Assembly (NCBI GenBank): GCA_002705565.1
Contig: PAHJ01000096.1
Coordinates: forward strand, 1-46,347
Direction: 5' to 3'
Origin: Geminicoccus sp.
GTDB lineage: Bacteria > Pseudomonadota > Alphaproteobacteria > UBA7985
DNA: 46,347 bases
In this document: in pieces, positions 36,783 to 45,740 of the stretch
Layout: each line of letters starts with the position of its first letter
How positions within the stretch are numbered: position 1 is the first letter of the stretch
Translations under genes and position numbers: made by a program
The notes under the pieces: generated by a model
Told to the model about the DNA's origin: nothing
Database searches by the model: none
Seen by the model: only the letters and a program-made list of their open reading frames with translations

Positions 36783-39700
36783 TTATTCGAACGGGTTGAT
36801 GTCTTCGGGTGGTCGCTGGCTTGGCGCACGGGCGCTTTCACCAAAGACGGACTGAAGCGTCGGCTCTTCGCCCATCCCTCCGTTTTCGATCACGGTGCTT
36901 TGGCGCAGGTCGACGTTCAGACACAGCGCGCGCAGCTCTTTGATCAAGACGTTGAAGGACTCAGGAATACCGGCTTCGAAGTTGTCGTCACCCCGAACAA
37001 TAGACTCGTAAACCTTGGTCCGGCCTGCCACGTCATCCGACTTCACTGTCAGCATTTCCTGAAGCGTGTAGGCGGCGCCATAGGCTTGCAGGGCCCAAAC
37101 TTCCATCTCACCGAAGCGCTGGCCACCGAACTGCGCCTTACCACCCAGCGGCTGCTGGGTCACAAGCGAGTAAGGACCGATGGAACGAGCGTGGATCTTG
37201 TCATCCACCAGGTGATGAAGCTTGAGCAGGTATTTGTAGCCCACAGTCACCGGACGATCGAAAGGATCACCTGAGCGACCATCATAGAGCTGTACCTGAC
37301 CAGAACCGTCCAAGCCGGCTTGCTCCAGCATCCTCACGATGTCGGATTCCTTGGCACCATCAAACACAGGCGTTGCGAATGGTACGCCCGAGGTGACGTT
37401 GCTGGCGACTTCCAGCTTGTCGCTCTCAGCCAAACCTTCCAGCTCCTCCGGATCATAGACATCCGCAAGGCGCTGGTTGATCTCAGCCATGGCACCTTCG
37501 CGCCCCATCTTGTAGGCCCGCAGTGCATCGCCAATCTGGCGACCAATACCGCGTGCAGCCCAGCCCAGGTGGGTTTCGAGGATTTGACCAATGTTCATTC
37601 GCGACGGCACGCCCAACGGGTTGAGCACGATGTCAACGGGGGTTCCGTCTTCGAGGAACGGCATGTCTTCGGACGGGTTGATCTTGGAGATCACACCTTT
37701 GTTGCCGTGACGGCCAGCCATTTTGTCACCGGGCTGCAGCTTACGCTTCACCGCGACGTAGACCTTAACCATCTTGAGAACACCCGGCGGCAGCTCATCA
37801 CCACGCTGGATTTTCTCAACCTTGTCTTCGAACCAGCGCTGGATCACGTCGACCTTATCGCCGAACTCCTGACGCAGGTTCTCCAGAACCTTCATGGCTT
37901 CGTCATTCTCAACGGCGATCTGGCGCCACTGGCCTGGGGTGAACTGACCGAGAATGCTCTCGTCAATCGCAACACCCTTCTGGATGCCTTCCGGACCATC
38001 CTGAACAACCTGCCCCATCAGCACGTCTTTGAGACGGGAGTAGAAGGAACGCTCGATAATCGCGCGTTCGTCGTCCCTGTCCTTTGCCAGCGTTTCAATT
38101 TCCAGACGCTCAATCGCCAGAGCACGCTCGTCCTTGTCCACGCCACGACGTGAGAATACGCGCACGTCAACGACGGTACCGACAGCGCCCGGAGGCAGAC
38201 GAAGGGAACTGTCGCGCACGTCAGAGGCCTTTTCGCCAAAGATCGCCCGAAGCAGCTTTTCTTCCGGCGTCATCGGGCTTTCGCCCTTTGGCGTCACTTT
38301 GCCGATCAGAATGTCGCTCGGCTGCACCTCAGCCCCGACGTACACGATGCCAGCCTCATCGAGGTTGCGCAGCGCGTCTTCGCCAACGTTTGGAATATCG
38401 CGGGTGATTTCCTCGGGTCCAAGCTTGGTATCCCGCGCCATCACTTCGTATTCGTCGATATGAATCGAGGTGAATACGTCATCGCGCACGATGCGCTCGT
38501 TGATCAGGATCGAATCTTCGAAGTTGTAACCCTGCCATGGCATAAAGGCCACGAGCACGTTCCGGCCCAGCGCCAATTCACCAAGGTGCGTGGACGGGCC
38601 ATCGGCGATGATGTCGCCCTTTTCAACCTTGTCACCCACTTGAACCAGCGGACGCTGGATGATGCAGGTGGACTGGTTGGAACGCTGGAACTTGGACAGT
38701 CGGTAGATTTCAACACCAGTTTCAGTGTCGGTCGCGAAGTCCATTTCACGGATCACGATACGGCCGGCATCGACCTGATCGATCACACCTGAGCGGCGCG
38801 CAATCACGGTTGCCCCAGAGTCCCGCGCAACCGTTGCCTCCATGCCGGTGCCCACGAATGGCGCCTCAGCTCGGATCAGCGGAACCGCCTGACGCATCAT
38901 GTTCGAGCCCATCAGAGCACGGTTTGCATCATCGTTTTGCAGGAACGGTACAAGAGATGCGGCAACGGATACCAACTGCTTTGGCGAAACGTCGATCAGG
39001 TCAACGTCGGTTGGCAGAGCCACCACGAATTCACCGTTTGACCGCGCTGTCACCAAATCTTCAGTCAGGAAGTTCTTGCCATCAATCGGCGCGTTTGCCT
39101 GCGCCACGGTGTAGCGCTGCTCCTCCATCGCGGAGAGGTAGACCACCTCATCGGTAACCTGACCCTTCTCAACCTTCCGGTAAGGCGATTCAATGAAGCC
39201 GTACTGGTTCACCCGCGCGTACGTCGCCAGCGAGTTGATCAGACCAATGTTTGGACCTTCCGGCGTTTCAATCGGACAGATACGACCGTAATGCGTCGGG
39301 TGCACGTCACGGACTTCAAAGCCCGCACGCTCGCGCGTCAGACCACCTGGGCCAAGCGCCGAAAGACGACGCTTGTGGGTGATTTCTGACAGCGGGTTGG
39401 TCTGGTCCATAAACTGCGACAGCTGAGACGAACCAAAGAACTCGCGCACCGCAGCGGCAGCAGGCTTAGCGTTGATCACGTCCTGAGGCATCACCGTATC
39501 AATATCGACCGACGACATCCGCTCCTTAATCGCCCGCTCCATACGCAGCAGGCCAACGCGGTACTGGTTTTCCATCAGCTCGCCCACGGAGCGGACACGA
39601 CGGTTACCCAGGTTATCGATGTCATCAATATCGCCGCGACCGTCTTTCATTTCTGACAGGTTACGAACGATTTCAAGGATGTCTTCTTTGCGCAGCACGC

Positions 39701-41069
39701 GCAGAGTGTCCTCGGTATCAAACAGCCCCTGCTCGCCCTCACGAGCGGTTGCAGCCAGGCGCATGTTCATCTTCACGCGGCCCACGGCAGAGAGATCGAA
39801 GCGCTCGTCATCGAAGAACAGACCCGAAAACAGCGCTTCAGCGGTTTCGAGGGTTGGTGGCTCGCCCGGCCGCATGACGCGGTAGATATCGATCAGCGCT
39901 TCTTCACGCGTGGCGTTCTTATCAACTGCCAGCGTGTTGCGGATATACGCGCCCCGGTTCAGGTGGTCGATGTCCAGGGTTTCAATCGCTGTAATGCCCT
40001 TGTCGAGCAGCTCTTCAAGAAGGGCCTCAGACAGCTCATCGCCGGCTTCCGCCCATACCAGGCCTGATTTTTTGTCGAACGCATCTCTGGCGATATAGCG
40101 GCCAATGAGATCTTCGCGGCTGACGAGCAGCTGCGTTACCGTTTCCGCAAGCTTCTTGGCTTTGCGCGGGGTGATCTTGTCTCCTGCCTTAGCGACGACT
40201 TCGCCGTCGGCGGCGTTGACTAGGTCGTCAACCAGCTTCTTGCCCGAGTATTGAGACGCATCGAAAGCCGTACGGAACTGACCATCGCCCGCAGCCTCGA
40301 AGGTGATGCGGCCGTAAATCATGCTCAGGATTTCTTCTCGGCTCATCCCCGTCGCCTGGAACGGCGCCAAGCTCTTGCCCTCTGCTGCGGCTTCCGTGCG
40401 TTCCTGCGCGGTGAAACTGGAATCCAGCGCCATCAGCAAAGTGGTTGCAGGCAACTTACGGCGGCGGTCGATGCGGACGTACAGCAAGTCCTTGGCGTCA
40501 AACTCAAAGTCGAGCCAGGAGCCGCGATACGGGATCACGCGGGCGGAGAACAGCAGCTTGCCGGAGGAATGTGACTTGCCGCGGTCGTGGTCAAAGAACA
40601 CGCCTGGCGAGCGGTGCATCTGGGAGACGATGACTCGCTCCGTGCCGTTCACGATAAATGTACCGTGATCGGTCATCAGTGGCATATCGCCCATGTAGAC
40701 GTCTTGCTCTTTGATGTCGCGGACCGAGCGCGAGCCCGTGTCTTCGTCAACGTCCCAGACAACCAGGCGCAGCGTCACCTTGAGCGGTGCCGCATAGGTC
40801 AGACCACGAGACATGCACTCGTCTTCGTCGTACTTCGGCGACTCAAGCTCATAGCGCACAAACTGCAGCTCGGAGCGGTCGGAGAAGTCCTTGATCGGGA
40901 AGACCGACTTGAACACTTCCTCGAGACCGGACGTGCCGGTATCAGGTTTTTGCAAAAAACCGTCATAAGAGGCGCGTTGCACCTCAATGAGGTTTGGCAT
41001 CTGGACCGCTTCGCGAATACGGCCAAAGGACTTCCGGACGCGTTTCCGCTCGGTAAACGACTTACCCAT
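36783..41069 (-). CDS. rpoB: DNA-directed RNA polymerase subunit beta
   Basis: RpoB forms the other half of the RNA polymerase active centre. The 1428-residue chain begins [17 protein letters not shown]. The rifampicin-binding region (about 39390-39445) reads [17 protein letters not shown] then [18 protein letters not shown], the usual alphaproteobacterial form with T rather than N at the position matching E. coli 518. It carries no classic resistance substitution at the S, D, H or second S positions. [17 protein letters not shown] and the C-terminal switch regions are present. It is preceded by a 281-nt leader instead of following rplL directly. Confidence 0.98.
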
Positions 41070-41350
41070 CGATATAGGGCCCCCTTGTCTGGGTCATTTC
41101 TGCCAGCGTTTAGACACTCACAACAACGTGGATGGTCGGGGGCTGTCCCTGCGTTAGAGGGTACAGAAGCCGCTTTGATCCAAGGCGAAAAACGCCTGGA
41201 CCGCCTGTTCGGAGCTATTGCTGCCGGAATTTTGTATTGAGTGTGCGCTGACAACCATCACTGTCAGCGTGCAGAGATACGCTGGTCGGACCAATTCCGC
41301 AAGGCTGGGAGACGTTGCGAATTGTCAAGGCTGCTGTGTGCAAGCACGGG
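41070..41350 (-). promoter_or_regulatory. Structured rpoB 5' leader region
   Basis: This 281-nt stretch lies upstream of rpoB and contains no gene. It holds a perfect 8-bp hairpin, CGCTGACA (41246-41253) with TGTCAGCG (41262-41269), and a 7-bp hairpin with one bulged A, CC-AGGCG/CGCCTGG, at 41180-41199. Read on the minus strand these fall in the rpoB leader. Because a terminator follows rplL and accessory genes intervene, a dedicated rpoBC promoter must lie here or in the neighbouring gene. A TTGACA element at 41323-41328 (minus) has no good -10 at normal spacing. Confidence 0.5.
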
Positions 41351-42454
41351 TCAGTTCAACCCCGATCTAGGCCCCTTGGAATTCCGTCCAAATGACGGTG
41401 CGCGATGGGGTCTCTTTGATTGAGGTGTTTGGTGGCTCTTTGACCTGTGTGCCGGACGATCCCGCCCTGGCCCGTCGCGTTTGCGGCCGGCAAAAGGTGC
41501 GCGGGGCCGCTTGGGCGAGCTGGGTCCGCCGAGCGGGCGTGCATCCCGCCCCGAAAACGCGAAACGCCCATGGATCCTACCTTCAACCCCTGCCAAGGAT
41601 GGGTCTTTGCGAGACTGTGTGCCCGGCAAACTGAAGGAAACGCCGTCCACGTACAGCGTTCCGTCCTGCTCACCCGGTAGACCGGACAGCACAGCCCCCT
41701 TCAACCGTGTCGGATCAAAAATCGTCCGTGGTCGCGTGACGGCTTCACGCACCACCAAGCGTGGCTCAGCTTCCTGTGACAGATACCCTCTGACCGTCGC
41801 GCGCGTGTTGGCGTAGAGCTGTACGCCGTCGAGCAGCACGACAGGCACACCGGCAACACGACCATTCCGCGTCACCGGTCCGGTCACGATCGCTTCCCGG
41901 CTGGTGGTTTGCTGCACATTGGCGGCTTGAATAATGCCGCGATGATCGCGCAGACCGGTGACCACAACCCAATCACCGCTGCGCAGCGTCATGGTTTCGG
42001 TGAAAGACGGCAGGATGACGTACTGACCCAAGACCTTCAAAATCCAAAGACCCTGGCTTTTACCAATCTGACTGATGGGACCGAGCAGCGCGAAGGTTGC
42101 ATCGATCCGGCTGGCAGTGAACGTGCCGTCTGCCGCCTGAACAGCTTCGACAGCCACAGTCTGCCCCAAGCTCAACTCGCTTTCGCTCGCAGGACGACCA
42201 TTCAGCGTTATCGTTGCGGTATTGGGAATCTCGATGCGCACGTCATTCACCCAGATCGATGAAAACCCTTCGATCAGGCCATAGATGCCCGTACCGCCAA
42301 TGCCGGAATCCAGCCCTGTTCCGCCAATACCGGCATCAATGCCGGTCCCGCCAATGCCGCTCCCGCCCTGCCCCCAACCATGAGTGGGTAGGGTAAGGGC
42401 GGATCCAGCCAACAGTGTAAGCGTTGAGCGCCGGGTCAGGCGGTCACGGTTCAT
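41351..42454 (-). CDS. Exported DUF5666-domain protein with GIGGTG repeats
   Basis: A 367-residue predicted exported protein. The N-terminus (DRLTRRSTLTLLAGSALTLP) is a Tat-like twin-Arg signal. The mature start carries three GIGGTG copies on a 9-residue period (33-38, 42-47, 51-56). DUF5666-type beta domains follow (WVNDVRIEIPNTATITLNGR and the next strands: SLGQTVAVEAVQ; later GDWVVVTGLRD). The last 65 residues are Arg/Pro/Lys/Ser-rich and likely disordered, as in other DUF5666 proteins. Function is unknown. Its ATG overlaps the stop of the DUF6502 gene by 4 nt, a translational-coupling arrangement, so the pair probably acts together. Confidence 0.72.
   Translation of the reverse strand: MNRDRLTRRSTLTLLAGSALTLPTHGWGQGGSGIGGTGIDAGIGGTGLDSGIGGTGIYGLIEGFSSIWVNDVRIEIPNTATITLNGRPASESELSLGQTVAVEAVQAADGTFTASRIDATFALLGPISQIGKSQGLWILKVLGQYVILPSFTETMTLRSGDWVVVTGLRDHRGIIQAANVQQTTSREAIVTGPVTRNGRVAGVPVVLLDGVQLYANTRATVRGYLSQEAEPRLVVREAVTRPRTIFDPTRLKGAVLSGLPGEQDGTLYVDGVSFSLPGTQSRKDPSLAGVEGRIHGRFAFSGRDARPLGGPSSPKRPRAPFAGRKRDGPGRDRPAHRSKSHQTPQSKRPHRAPSFGRNSKGPRSGLN
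42284..42367 (-). repeat. 27-nt imperfect tandem repeat encoding GIGGTG units
   Basis: About three copies of a 27-nt unit encode the 9-residue repeats of the DUF5666 protein (GIGGTG plus a variable triplet such as IDA or LDS). Synonymous changes between copies show it is not a fresh duplication. Confidence 0.7.
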
Positions 42455-43275
42455 ACGTCGACCTCATCTTGATAGAAGTAAACGCCGATACGAACACGCC
42501 GTGCGGCTTCGTTGGGCACCTCGGCCTCGTCGGGCGTCTTCTCAGACAGCTCACCCATGTCAGCCAAAAGCGCCATAGCTGATACGGACAGGGCATCGCG
42601 CAATACCTGCACCTGCGCCGGCGATACTTCCGGATTGAACATGGCGCGCTCGAAGTAGCGGTGGTCGGGCGCCGCAGAAATATTGTGGATGGCCGCGCTC
42701 AAGTGGTCTCCGACGTTAGCAGACAGAAATTCAATGCTTTCCCTCGAATTTGCTTCGGGAAGAAAGGCGGCTGACTTCAGCCGATACGTGCCGTCCTGCA
42801 AGTTTTCGACCAGTCCGGCCGCTATTAATCCCTCAAGGACTGATTTAGCCCGAACTTCTGGGCCGATTTCTTCTACAAGTTGGGCAAAGCTGGGGCCATC
42901 GCTGTGCTTAGCCATGGGAAGCACCAAAGGCTGCCCCTGTGGATCGCGATAGCGCCGGTTAGACGACCAGCGCGTCACAACGCGGGCGGAAGGGCTGTCG
43001 GTGGTGGGCCGCACGGTATTGGGTTCGTGTGCACGCTCCTTGATCCAGCGTGAGATTTCACGGCGATGGATGCCGGTGGCTACGTGCAGTGATGACACCG
43101 TTACTTTGGCACCTGATCGCTCAAACTGCGAAAACGCCGCCTCCAACGTTGCGTCCCGCAACGCAGTTTCAAGCATGCCGTGTGACAGCCCCATGCGTAG
43201 TCCGCCTGCCGCTATCTCCTGCATCAATCGATGCGCTGCCGAGAGATAAGCCGCCTTTGTATCCTGATCGGTCAT
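42451..43275 (-). CDS. DUF6502-family helix-turn-helix protein
   Basis: A 274-residue cytoplasmic protein that matches the DUF6502 pattern. An N-terminal domain ends in a helix-turn-helix, VTVSSLHVATGIHRREISRWI (about 58-78), which looks DNA-binding. A linker carries RVVTRWSSNRRYRDPQGQPLVLPM. A second domain follows (SFAQLVEEIGPEVRAKSVLEGLIAAGLVE). The C-terminal helical part ends YFYQDEVDV. No catalytic motif is seen. The combination suggests a transcription factor of unknown effector. The stop overlaps the ATG of the DUF5666 gene, and the start faces a region with strong palindromes (43325-43430), so autoregulation is plausible. Confidence 0.75.
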   Translation of the reverse strand: MTDQDTKAAYLSAAHRLMQEIAAGGLRMGLSHGMLETALRDATLEAAFSQFERSGAKVTVSSLHVATGIHRREISRWIKERAHEPNTVRPTTDSPSARVVTRWSSNRRYRDPQGQPLVLPMAKHSDGPSFAQLVEEIGPEVRAKSVLEGLIAAGLVENLQDGTYRLKSAAFLPEANSRESIEFLSANVGDHLSAAIHNISAAPDHRYFERAMFNPEVSPAQVQVLRDALSVSAMALLADMGELSEKTPDEAEVPNEAARRVRIGVYFYQDEVDV

Positions 43276-43347
43276 TGGTCTTCAGTCATTGTTGCCCTGT
43301 GCATGGTCTGCAGACGCCACGCTTTTCCTAGGAATGCTTTGTATCGC

Positions 43348-43363
43348 CTTTTTGCGCAAAAAG
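43348..43363. repeat. Perfect 16-bp palindrome CTTTTTGCGCAAAAAG
   Basis: The sequence reads identically on both strands with no loop, so it is better as a dimeric-protein site than an RNA hairpin. It lies 15 bp upstream of the -35 element of the small-protein promoter. Confidence 0.6.
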
Positions 43364-43377
43364 CTCACGTTTTTTTA

Positions 43378-43406
43378 TTGACGTGCGCGTTGCGCTCACG
43401 TATCTG
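43378..43406 (+). promoter_or_regulatory. Sigma-70-type promoter for the small secreted protein
   Basis: TTGACG (43378-43383) and TATCTG (43401-43406) are 17 bp apart, the ideal spacing. The -35 is near consensus and the -10 only half so. The predicted start of transcription falls near 43413, about 100 nt before the TTG start. The left arm of the large inverted repeat lies across the spacer. Confidence 0.55.
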
Positions 43407-43430
43407 TGGTTTTGTGAGCACAACGCACAC
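43383..43430. repeat. 17-bp-arm inverted repeat overlapping a promoter (operator-like)
   Basis: Left arm 43383-43399 (gtgcgcgttgcgctcac) and right arm 43414-43430 (gtgagcacaacgcacac) match as inverted repeats at 15 of 17 positions, with a 14-nt centre that contains the -10. This layout suits binding by a dimer that blocks RNA polymerase, or an RNA hairpin at the transcript's 5' end. Confidence 0.65.
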
Positions 43431-43512
43431 ACAGCATGTACCCGCAGCAACCTGCAACCCGCCAAAGGGAAGCAGCAAAAAACAACGCCCTAAGCCCTAA
43501 AGGACCATCGCT

Positions 43513-43872
43513 TTGAAAACTCTCATTCTCTCAACCATCACCGCATCCGCCATCAGCCTTTGCATGGTCACGTCCGCCCACGCTGTTGATTGTAGCCGTT
43601 TCGAAGACCGCTCCGCGTTCTTCACATCGATTGGCCTGACCGACTCAGCCAGCTTCTGGGATGAAGTTGCGACCGAATGTGCCGCGAGCGACTGGTCCAG
43701 CAGCGACCGCAAAACGGTTCGGGACAACATTCGCACGCTCACCACTGAAAACGCCTATGAGCGGCCGGACCGTGAGACCGTAAGAGACGCAGCGGAAGCA
43801 GCCGGTGTTGAGGTTCGTGACGCACGTCACGGCAAGCGTAAGAAGGGATCACGCAGCAAGCGTTCCGATTAA
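43513..43872 (+). CDS. Small secreted protein with internal DR(K/E)TVRD repeat
   Basis: This 119-residue protein is not recognised. It has a clear signal peptide (about 1-24, cleavage AHA-VD), and the mature part has two Cys (C27, C56) that could form a disulfide. Two related segments, SDRKTVRDNI (64-73) and PDRETVRDAA (85-94), are spaced 21 residues apart. The C-terminus is strongly basic (HGKRKKGSRSKRSD). The start is TTG at 43513 with AAAGGA 8 nt upstream. It is driven by the promoter at 43378 and followed by a strong terminator at 43956. It is divergent from the DUF6502-DUF5666 pair, sharing their control region, which suggests a common function. Confidence 0.65.
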   Translation: MKTLILSTITASAISLCMVTSAHAVDCSRFEDRSAFFTSIGLTDSASFWDEVATECAASDWSSSDRKTVRDNIRTLTTENAYERPDRETVRDAAEAAGVEVRDARHGKRKKGSRSKRSD

Positions 43873-43955
43873 TTTAATCGCCGCGAGCTTATCGAACACA
43901 GGGAACGCTAACCCACGGCTCCTTCCCCATGATGTGGATCAGGCTTCCTTGCGTG

Positions 43956-43991
43956 AGGGTCACCGAACTTGATTTGGTGACCCTTTCTTTT
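43956..43991 (+). terminator. Intrinsic terminator after the small secreted protein
   Basis: AGGGTCACC (43956-43964) and GGTGACCCT (43976-43984) form a perfect 9-bp stem with an 11-nt loop, followed by TTCTTTT. It ends the plus-strand transcript 84 nt after the small gene's stop. On the minus strand there is no T-tract on the correct side. Confidence 0.88.
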
Positions 43992-44019
43992 GACGCGAAA
44001 CTGGCGTGCTTGAGGTGGT

Positions 44020-45174
44020 TTAATCCTTTGGGATTGAAGGCCGCATGGCGCCTGCAATCAGGCTCATCAGAACTGCGAGAACAATCAGCAGTCCAAAGGC
44101 CAGCCGGATTGATGTCAGCTCAGCCAAACCGCCAATAATCGGCGGCCCCAACAACAGCCCCCCATACCCAAGAGTGGCCACACTCGCAATCGCCTGTCCT
44201 GCTGATACCCCGTCTTCCCGGGCTGCGCGGGAGAACGCCATGGGAATGATCGTGGCATAGCCAATGCCCATAAGAGCGAAGCCGAGAAGGCTCATCCAGT
44301 AGGTTCCTGCTACCACGGCCAAAAGCCCGCCCAGCGCAGCAATTCCCCCGCTTAATCGGGTTACCAATACCGGCCCCAGCGCCGCGATCACCCGGTCGCC
44401 CAACAGGCGGGTTACGACCATCAGAACGGAAAAGGCGGTAAAGCCAAGCGCGGCCCGGGCTTCGTTGACTTGTGTGACCTCAATCAGGAACGTGGCACTC
44501 CAGTCCACCATCCCGCCTTCACCAATCGTGGTACAAAAGCCAACCAACCCGACGAGAATCAGCATGCCTCGAGGGAGGTTGAATAGGGGTGCGCCGCCAT
44601 GGCTCACCGTTCTTTCAGAGGTCCACTGGATGGTCGCAAAGGGCAGGCAAAGCATCGAGAAGAGTGCAGCGGCGAGCAAAAAATGCAGGCCGGACCCCAG
44701 GCCAGCGACCCCGGCGAAATACCCACTGAGCGCACCCAGCCCTGTCCCGAAAGACCAGGTTGCGTGGAAGGATGACATGATCGGACGTCCAGCGCGCTTT
44801 TCGACCTCGGTTGCCCACGAGTTCATGGTCACATCCATGCCGCCATGGGTTGCGCCGAAAAAGAACATCGCAGCCCCCAAAGCCAGGATCGACACGGGCG
44901 CCAGCGCAATACCAACCAGCGATGCGCCGTAAAGCACCGCCAGAATCCGCGTTATACGCGCGGCGCCAAATCGGTCAGCCAAACGGCCCGCAATAGGAAA
45001 ACTGATCAGCGCCCCGATGGCCATGACCAGCAGCAAAATCCCAAACTGCCCTTTATCGAGCCCCTGTACATCCCGGATCGAGGGTATTCGAGACGCCCAG
45101 ATGCCCAGAAATGCGCCGTTAAGAACGAACATCGCTGAAACAGCACGCCAGGGCGTAAACAAGGTTGCAGTCAA
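44020..45174 (-). CDS. MFS transporter (YbjJ-like)
   Basis: A major facilitator superfamily transporter of about 384 residues with 12 predicted membrane helices. The N-terminal FLGIWASRIPSIRDVQGLDKGQFG and the loop GRLADRFGAARITR between helices 2 and 3 (MFS motif A type) are typical of the YbjJ branch. MDVTMNSWATEVEKRAGRPIMSSFHATWSFG is also characteristic. The substrate is unknown. I chose TTG at 45174 with AGGAG 10 nt upstream because the extra 22 residues from the GTG at 45240 look non-membrane and lack a ribosome site. The gene lies between rplL and the accessory genes but is cut off from rplL by a terminator, and converges with the small secreted-protein gene. Confidence 0.85.
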   Translation of the reverse strand: MTATLFTPWRAVSAMFVLNGAFLGIWASRIPSIRDVQGLDKGQFGILLLVMAIGALISFPIAGRLADRFGAARITRILAVLYGASLVGIALAPVSILALGAAMFFFGATHGGMDVTMNSWATEVEKRAGRPIMSSFHATWSFGTGLGALSGYFAGVAGLGSGLHFLLAAALFSMLCLPFATIQWTSERTVSHGGAPLFNLPRGMLILVGLVGFCTTIGEGGMVDWSATFLIEVTQVNEARAALGFTAFSVLMVVTRLLGDRVIAALGPVLVTRLSGGIAALGGLLAVVAGTYWMSLLGFALMGIGYATIIPMAFSRAAREDGVSAGQAIASVATLGYGGLLLGPPIIGGLAELTSIRLAFGLLIVLAVLMSLIAGAMRPSIPKD

Positions 45175-45280
45175 AACACCAAGTCTCCTGAGGGGTCCGG
45201 GCCAAGGGCGACCACCGAACAATCGGACCGATTCAGGCACTGTTTGTGCGGAACGTCCTGGTGGTCAAGATTGAGAGAAC

Positions 45281-45325
45281 AAAAAAGGGGGCGCGGCATC
45301 CCAAATGAGCCGCACCCCCCTTTTC
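45281..45325 (-). terminator. Strong intrinsic terminator after rplL
   Basis: On the minus strand a G-rich arm (rc of 45315-45320) and GCGGC (rc of 45309-45313) pair with GCCGC (rc of 45293-45297) and CCCCC (rc of 45287-45291). The stem is two blocks separated by one mismatch, followed by TTTTTT. It lies 32-76 nt past the rplL stop and should end the rplJL transcript before the MFS gene. Confidence 0.9.
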
Positions 45326-45356
45326 TAAAAAGTTCCACTGGTAACAGTGGCGCGTC

Positions 45357-45740
45357 TTACTTGAGTTCGACTTCTGCGCCAACTTCTTCCAGCTTCTTTT
45401 TGATTTCTTCAGCTTCGTCCTTGGACGCGCCTTCCTTAACAGGCTTTGGAGCACCTTCTACAAGGTCCTTCGCTTCCTTCAGGCCCAGACCAGTGATGGC
45501 ACGGACTTCCTTAATCACGTTAATCTTCTTCTCGCCAGCGGCTTTGAGGATCACGTCAAATTCAGTCTGTTCTTCAGCAGCAGCTGCGCCGGCGTCACCA
45601 CCAGGTGCAGCCATCATCATGCCAGCAGCAGGAGCAGCAGCGGATACGCCCCACTCGTCTTCTAGCTTAGTTGCAAGTTCAGCAGCTTCCAGAACGGTAA
45701 GCTTGCCCAGTTCGGCTACGAGAGCGTCGAGATCAGCCAT
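45357..45740 (-). CDS. rplL: 50S ribosomal protein L7/L12
   Basis: L7/L12 forms the flexible stalk that recruits translation factors. The 127-residue product has the N-terminal dimerisation helices ([23 protein letters not shown]). An Ala/Gly/Met-rich hinge follows (about 34-58), then the globular C-terminal domain ([32 protein letters not shown] and the terminal [10 protein letters not shown]). It lies 60 nt after rplJ. Unlike in most bacteria, it is followed by a strong terminator and accessory genes, not by rpoB. Confidence 0.97.

Follow-up and report, generated by a model that had tools for sequence, protein, structure and literature searches.

The window, i.e., the whole stretch of 46,347 nucleotides analyzed here (contig PAHJ01000096.1 of Geminicoccus sp.), contains a three-gene locus flanked by rpoB (36783-41069, - strand) and a gene for an MFS transporter (44020-45240, - strand). 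Its genes and features are the following:

41351-42454, - strand: exported GIGGTG-repeat protein with DUF5666, 367 aa (Pfam PF18914, E 4e-11)
42288-42304, 42315-42331 and 42342-42358, - strand: three GIGGTG motifs, within 42288-42358
42451-43275, - strand: DUF6502 protein, 274 aa (Pfam PF20112, E 2.7e-21)
43352-43368, no strand: operator-like dyad 1, the nearest to DUF6502, with the core TGCGCAAAAAGCTCA at 43353-43367
43378-43406, + strand: predicted promoter of the secreted gene, with TTGACG (43378-43383), 17 bp and TATCTG (43401-43406)
43383-43399, no strand: operator-like dyad 2, GTGCGCGTTGCGCTCAC (core 43384-43398), within the spacer of the secreted gene's promoter
43414-43430, no strand: operator-like dyad 3, GTGAGCACAACGCACAC (core 43415-43429), 31 bp from dyad 2
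43513-43872, + strand: secreted protein of 119 aa, with a TTG start at 43513, divergent from the DUF6502 operon

Both family assignments exceed the curated cut-off of 27 bits, with scores of 76.1 for PF20112 and 43.5 for PF18914, while the 119-aa protein matches no family in Pfam or NCBIfam. The original prediction described a DUF6502 gene and an exported Gly-repeat gene overlapping by 4 nt, with a small secreted gene divergent from the pair. This layout is confirmed by the Pfam matches, by the stop/start overlap (TCAT at 42451-42454 on the + strand, that is, ATGA on the coding strand), and by the orientation and signal-like N-terminus of the 119-aa protein. The N-terminus of the DUF5666 protein is signal-like as well.

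The association between DUF6502 and an exported partner is found across Proteobacteria. DUF6502 is present in 15 of 385 genomes in our sample of the class and in 21 of 399 in that of the phylum, and a scan of named genomes contributed another 80 loci, found in alpha-, beta-, gamma- and delta-proteobacterial records. Conservation of the two genes as neighbors was one of two points on which the original prediction had staked itself, and it holds: in 105 of 117 loci, DUF6502 is followed on its own strand by a gene for an exported protein that contains a GxxGTG motif. Since the motif is itself the criterion of this count, the weight is carried by the controls, where it occurs in 6 of 116 divergent upstream regions (three of these being real GIGGTG lipoproteins) and in 3 of 109 antisense regions. 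Some of the loci come from close relatives, among them many Nitrosomonas, so the locus counts are not independent. At the level of genomes of the class, DUF5666 is present in 9 of the 15 with DUF6502 and in 7 of the 370 without it (Fisher p 1e-10), and the two genes are adjacent by coordinates in all 9 genomes of this sample that have both. Among the downstream partners scanned at other DUF6502 loci, 58 of 65 match DUF5666. The overlap of 4 nt is frequent elsewhere: in 39 of the 105 loci, the downstream gene has a possible start 4 nt within DUF6502.

The motif is more constant than DUF5666 in the exported partner. DUF5666 is missing in three lineages (L016, L077/L080 and L119/L121), where the small exported partner has about 90-125 aa and contains GIGGTG once. 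Other proteins have up to nine repeats. Hence, the predicted neighborhood of a regulator and an exported DUF5666 effector is supported, but DUF5666 is not its invariant part, and GIGGTG may be the functional core of the exported partner, by analogy with RGTGR in PatX. A nucleotide pattern for GIGGTG does not on its own separate genomes with DUF6502 from those without it; the motif is thus specific only by its position beside DUF6502. GIGGTG is also present in divergent lipoproteins, encoded across the shared promoter region, in gammaproteobacterial loci (L070:4150-4875, L072:4242-4880 and L122:4238-4873). Genome G470 has a second protein of the GIGGTG-DUF5666 type (L240:2721-4619, 632 aa, several motifs), with neither a DUF6502 neighbor nor a recognizable dyad; upstream of it, on the opposite strand, lies a gene that by eye resembles those of ECF sigma factors.

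The divergent position is more variable. Orthologs of the 119-aa protein (50-55% identity) are divergent from DUF6502 in three of the five other genomes of the genus (G310, G747 and G748), and the protein was found only in the genus, which was the widest range searched. Elsewhere other genes occupy its place. Across loci they often encode exported proteins, many of them repetitive or charged and mostly unrelated in sequence, with recognizable domains of the fasciclin, cytochrome and pentapeptide types.

The region between the divergent genes had been described as a shared, palindrome-rich control region. Its palindromes exceed chance, judging by the phasing of the dyads and their conservation in the genus, and this predicted control region carries a conserved operator. 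The three dyads of the window are spaced by exactly 31 and 31 bp. In this genus they take the form GTGMGC-N5-GCKCAC, which has diverged half-sites and the same geometry as the GTGGGA-N5-TCCCAC found more widely (see below). Dyad 1 is invariant in 16 of 16 columns among four genomes of the genus. Box 1 together with TTGAC and box 2 has 34 invariant columns out of 39 in the four genomes, whereas only 27 of the 181 remaining intergenic columns are invariant (p 4e-18, for columns that are not independent). Dyad 3 is present in G747 and G748 and absent in G310. The TTGACG and the TAT of the promoter of the secreted gene are conserved in the four genomes, although a strict consensus scan did not call this promoter because its -10 is weak. 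Within the window alone the short dyad pattern is weakly enriched (21 matches for 12.9 expected), and the evidence for these dyads therefore lies in their regular spacing and conservation. A search of the window's own genome for a genus regulon with a one-mismatch pattern was too noisy to be used, giving 47 matches and 34 in the reversed control. The same genome (G000) has a perfect GTGAGCAAAAAGCTCAC site of the window's operator type on contig C47 (10469-10485; L164:4470-4486), upstream of a gene for an exported YHYH-domain protein (PF14240, E 1.6e-61) and with a gene resembling HupE/UreJ by eye on its other side. The YHYH gene is a candidate second target of the window's DUF6502; its dyad is unsupported by relatives because a YHYH match is found in just one further genome of the genus (G745).

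Comparing the regions upstream of DUF6502 across loci revealed a 17-bp dyad, GTGGGA-N5-TCCCAC. Allowing at most one mismatch to TGGGA-N5-TCCCA, with a spacing of exactly 5 bp, there are 129 sites in 77 of the 117 loci and none in 117 controls (equal-sized stretches inside the DUF6502 gene). With at most two mismatches there are 190 sites in 101 loci and 14 sites in 13 controls. Other spacings between the half-sites remain at background level at one mismatch or less. The profile of dyad positions over loci is GTGGGAAWWTTCCCAC. The exact GTGGGA-N5-TCCCAC occurs in 8 of the 15 genomes of the class with DUF6502, compared with 12 of the 370 lacking it (p 6e-8). The sequence GTCAA follows the end of the dyad in 43 of the 117 loci, including those of the window and of G310, and in none of the controls. 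Read on the other strand this is TTGAC, the -35 of the divergent gene, and the dyad therefore sits in the promoter spacer. The dyad at one mismatch or less is absent from 40 of the 117 loci, and L030, L031 and L037 have no recognized dyad. Apart from the DUF6502 promoters, operator-like GTGGGA-N5-TCCCAC sites lie at L169:3037 (G327) and L166:3702 (G014); downstream of these are genes for RTX-type or large secreted repeat proteins in both genomes. In G014 a gene for a small membrane protein also has an operator-like site upstream.

The type of operator varies with the recognition helix of DUF6502. When the helix has R72 together with S, A or T at position 75, the GGG operator is found in 0 of 7 loci, whereas with other helices it is found in 83 of 110, a covariation that covers few independent lineages. 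Six of these seven loci have dyads of the TGMGC or TGTG type instead. Yet four of the five loci with R72 and K or R at position 75 keep the GGG operator, so that the code of the recognition helix is incomplete. Genome G605 has four DUF6502 genes (L017, L036, L037 and L038) with differing recognition helices, for example TRKDV in L017 and NRREV in L037. The dyads of L017 and L018 have a spacing of 6 instead of 5 and may mark other operator specificities.

The structure of the window's DUF6502 protein was predicted as a monomer with AlphaFold2 from 77 homologs (mean pLDDT 88), a single-sequence model being unusable (pLDDT 43). The model has two long N-terminal helices, a helix-turn-helix (HTH) with predicted helices at residues 60-67 and 71-83 and HRREISRW as recognition helix, a central winged-helix-like part and two C-terminal helices. 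In a Foldseek search of the PDB, HetR was the only fold at E <= 0.005, the next target having an E of 0.027. Its matches were 4j00 (E 4.1e-4, probability 1.00, over the whole length), 4yrv (E 2.7e-3, probability 0.99) and 3qod (E 3.6e-3, probability 0.97). The TM-score of 0.37 for 4j00 implies that domain orientations differ between the model and HetR. HetR regulates heterocyst patterning in cyanobacteria. It was reported to be a transcription factor of a new kind, whose flap and hood folds are novel (PMC4649674). Like the DUF6502 model, it has long N-terminal helices followed by an HTH at about residues 60-85, and its target is a 17-bp inverted repeat. A profile comparison of DUF6502 with HetR, using HetR chain sequences from the PDB, was null (hhalign probability 0.1), and the HetR family is not among the best 25 of the 38 Pfam families listed for 77 DUF6502 proteins. 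The resemblance therefore concerns the fold and the DNA target and not detectable sequence descent. PDB sequence searches with either window protein or with the DUF6502 profile gave no informative relative, no HetR relatives were found in plasmids, phages and viral contigs, and a fold search against viral proteins gave nothing significant.

The DNA targets can be compared base by base. In HetR, R62 contacts g3, K73 contacts g5/g6 and E71 contacts c15/c16 of gcgaGGGGtctaaCCCCtcat (PMC4649674). When centered on their dyads, the hetP site GAGGGGTCTAACCCCTC of HetR and the DUF6502 operator GTGGGAnnnnnTCCCAC agree at -8, -6, -5, -4 and the mirror positions, which include all the bases contacted by HetR R62, K73 and E71 (PMC4649674, PMC4192349). 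By our own estimate, chance would produce such agreement in roughly a few per cent of cases. The likeness of the operators therefore supports the link with HetR and does not prove it. The two targets also differ, as HetR needs GGG-N5-CCC whereas DUF6502 sites have A/T at -3/+3 (GGG-N7-CCC), and the dyads of the window's genus lack the GGG triplet. DUF6502 appears to combine a HetR-like predicted fold with a HetR-like reading of DNA.

The computed gene neighborhood, operator conservation, covariation and fold resemblance make it probable that DUF6502 is a dedicated local transcription factor, presumably dimeric, which acts on a 17-bp inverted repeat and controls the secreted gene divergent from it as well as its own operon. 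A DUF6502 dimer would bind GTGGGA-N5-TCCCAC in general and GTGMGC-N5-GCKCAC in the window's genus. In the window its most likely sites are the three dyads of the divergent intergenic region, set at intervals of 31 bp, through which it would control both the secreted gene and its own operon (DUF6502 and the exported GIGGTG-DUF5666 protein). Repression would be its simplest mode of action, since dyad 2 takes up the space between the -35 and the -10 of the secreted gene's promoter; DUF6502 may instead activate, and another factor could be the one that binds the dyads. The switch presumably responds to an inducing signal and may serve the envelope.

Several other readings bear on this interpretation. 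DUF6502 could be an ordinary winged-helix sensor of small molecules, akin to MarR, whose likeness to HetR is superficial. We regard this as possible though rather doubtful: the null profile comparison with HetR and a weak phmmer match of residues 117-197 to the MarR-type PA3341 (E 0.043) point this way, but MarR structures reach a Foldseek E of only about 0.3, far below HetR (4e-4), and the best-conserved HTH of DUF6502 lies near the N-terminus (residues 60-83) and not in the winged part. MarR also gave no Pfam match among the best 25 of the 38 families listed. It is highly unlikely that the dyads are the sites of an unrelated global regulator, with DUF6502 acting otherwise, e.g., as an anti-sigma factor or an RNA-binding protein. 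The 12 genomes that have exact dyads and lack DUF6502 would fit such a regulator, but they have little more than one site each, while in most of the lineages examined the dyads cluster at DUF6502 genes, and their type covaries with the recognition helix. That the neighborhood reflects inheritance only, with no regulatory link between DUF6502 and the exported protein, is extremely improbable: seven genomes of the class do have the DUF5666 protein and lack DUF6502, but the two genes stay adjacent in alpha-, beta-, gamma- and delta-proteobacterial records, together with a conserved operator and a frequent stop/start overlap.

The resemblance to HetR also raises the speculative and, in our view, unlikely scenario of peptide signaling as in HetR/PatX. 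Hexapeptides that bind the hood domain of HetR free it from DNA (PMC4649674), and PatX is an exported precursor that matures into the HetR inhibitor HRGTGR (PMC12756182). By analogy, the exported protein, or its minimal version, would be a precursor whose GIGGTG peptides re-enter the cell, bind the C-terminal part of DUF6502 and release it from DNA. This would fit the restriction of significant fold matches to HetR, the retention of GIGGTG by the partners devoid of DUF5666, its presence in the divergent lipoproteins and its repetition up to nine times per protein. Like PatX and PatS, the partner can be small, exported and linked to a regulator, and it contains a short motif of Gly and Thr; it differs in that its motif is GIGGTG, usually internal, repeated and followed by DUF5666, and its processing and binding are putative. 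Against this scenario, GIGGTG-DUF5666 proteins also occur without a DUF6502 neighbor (L240), and no gene for an RGSGR/RGTGR inhibitor peptide is recognizable in the DUF6502 loci or in positions 40001-45500 of the window, the matches in the loci looking antisense or in unrelated frames. HetR is cyanobacterial, with PatS and HetN as partners, while DUF6502 is not cyanobacterial and has GIGGTG-DUF5666 as its partner. It is equally improbable that the loci form a widespread proteobacterial module of the HetR type, where a HetR-fold regulator would control an exported precursor and be released from DNA by returning GIGGTG peptides. If true, it would mean density- or position-dependent control of secreted proteins, and the logic of heterocyst patterning outside cyanobacteria.

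The preferred reading, DUF6502 as a local regulator of its own locus, resembles the divergent autoregulated operons of the TetR/LysR style, with a regulator beside its target, a shared operator region and an operator in the promoter spacer. It differs from them by its protein family and operator, and by its regulated products, which are exported proteins lacking an assigned function. We found no mention of DUF6502 in the open-licence literature, a scope in which subscription work could be missed, and no relevant open-licence paper on GIGGTG; among the open-licence papers naming DUF5666, those consulted do so only in gene lists. Both families lack an assigned function, and what we propose here, from sequence comparisons, is a putative role and operator for DUF6502. 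The locus is most likely a conserved, undescribed regulator-effector module, in which a HetR-like DNA-binding protein works as an autoregulated local switch. A family spread over Proteobacteria thereby gains a testable function and operator. If DUF6502 shares the fold of HetR, then HetR-type regulation would be older or wider than cyanobacterial development, and the likely link of DUF6502 to exported proteins with short motifs would become directly testable.
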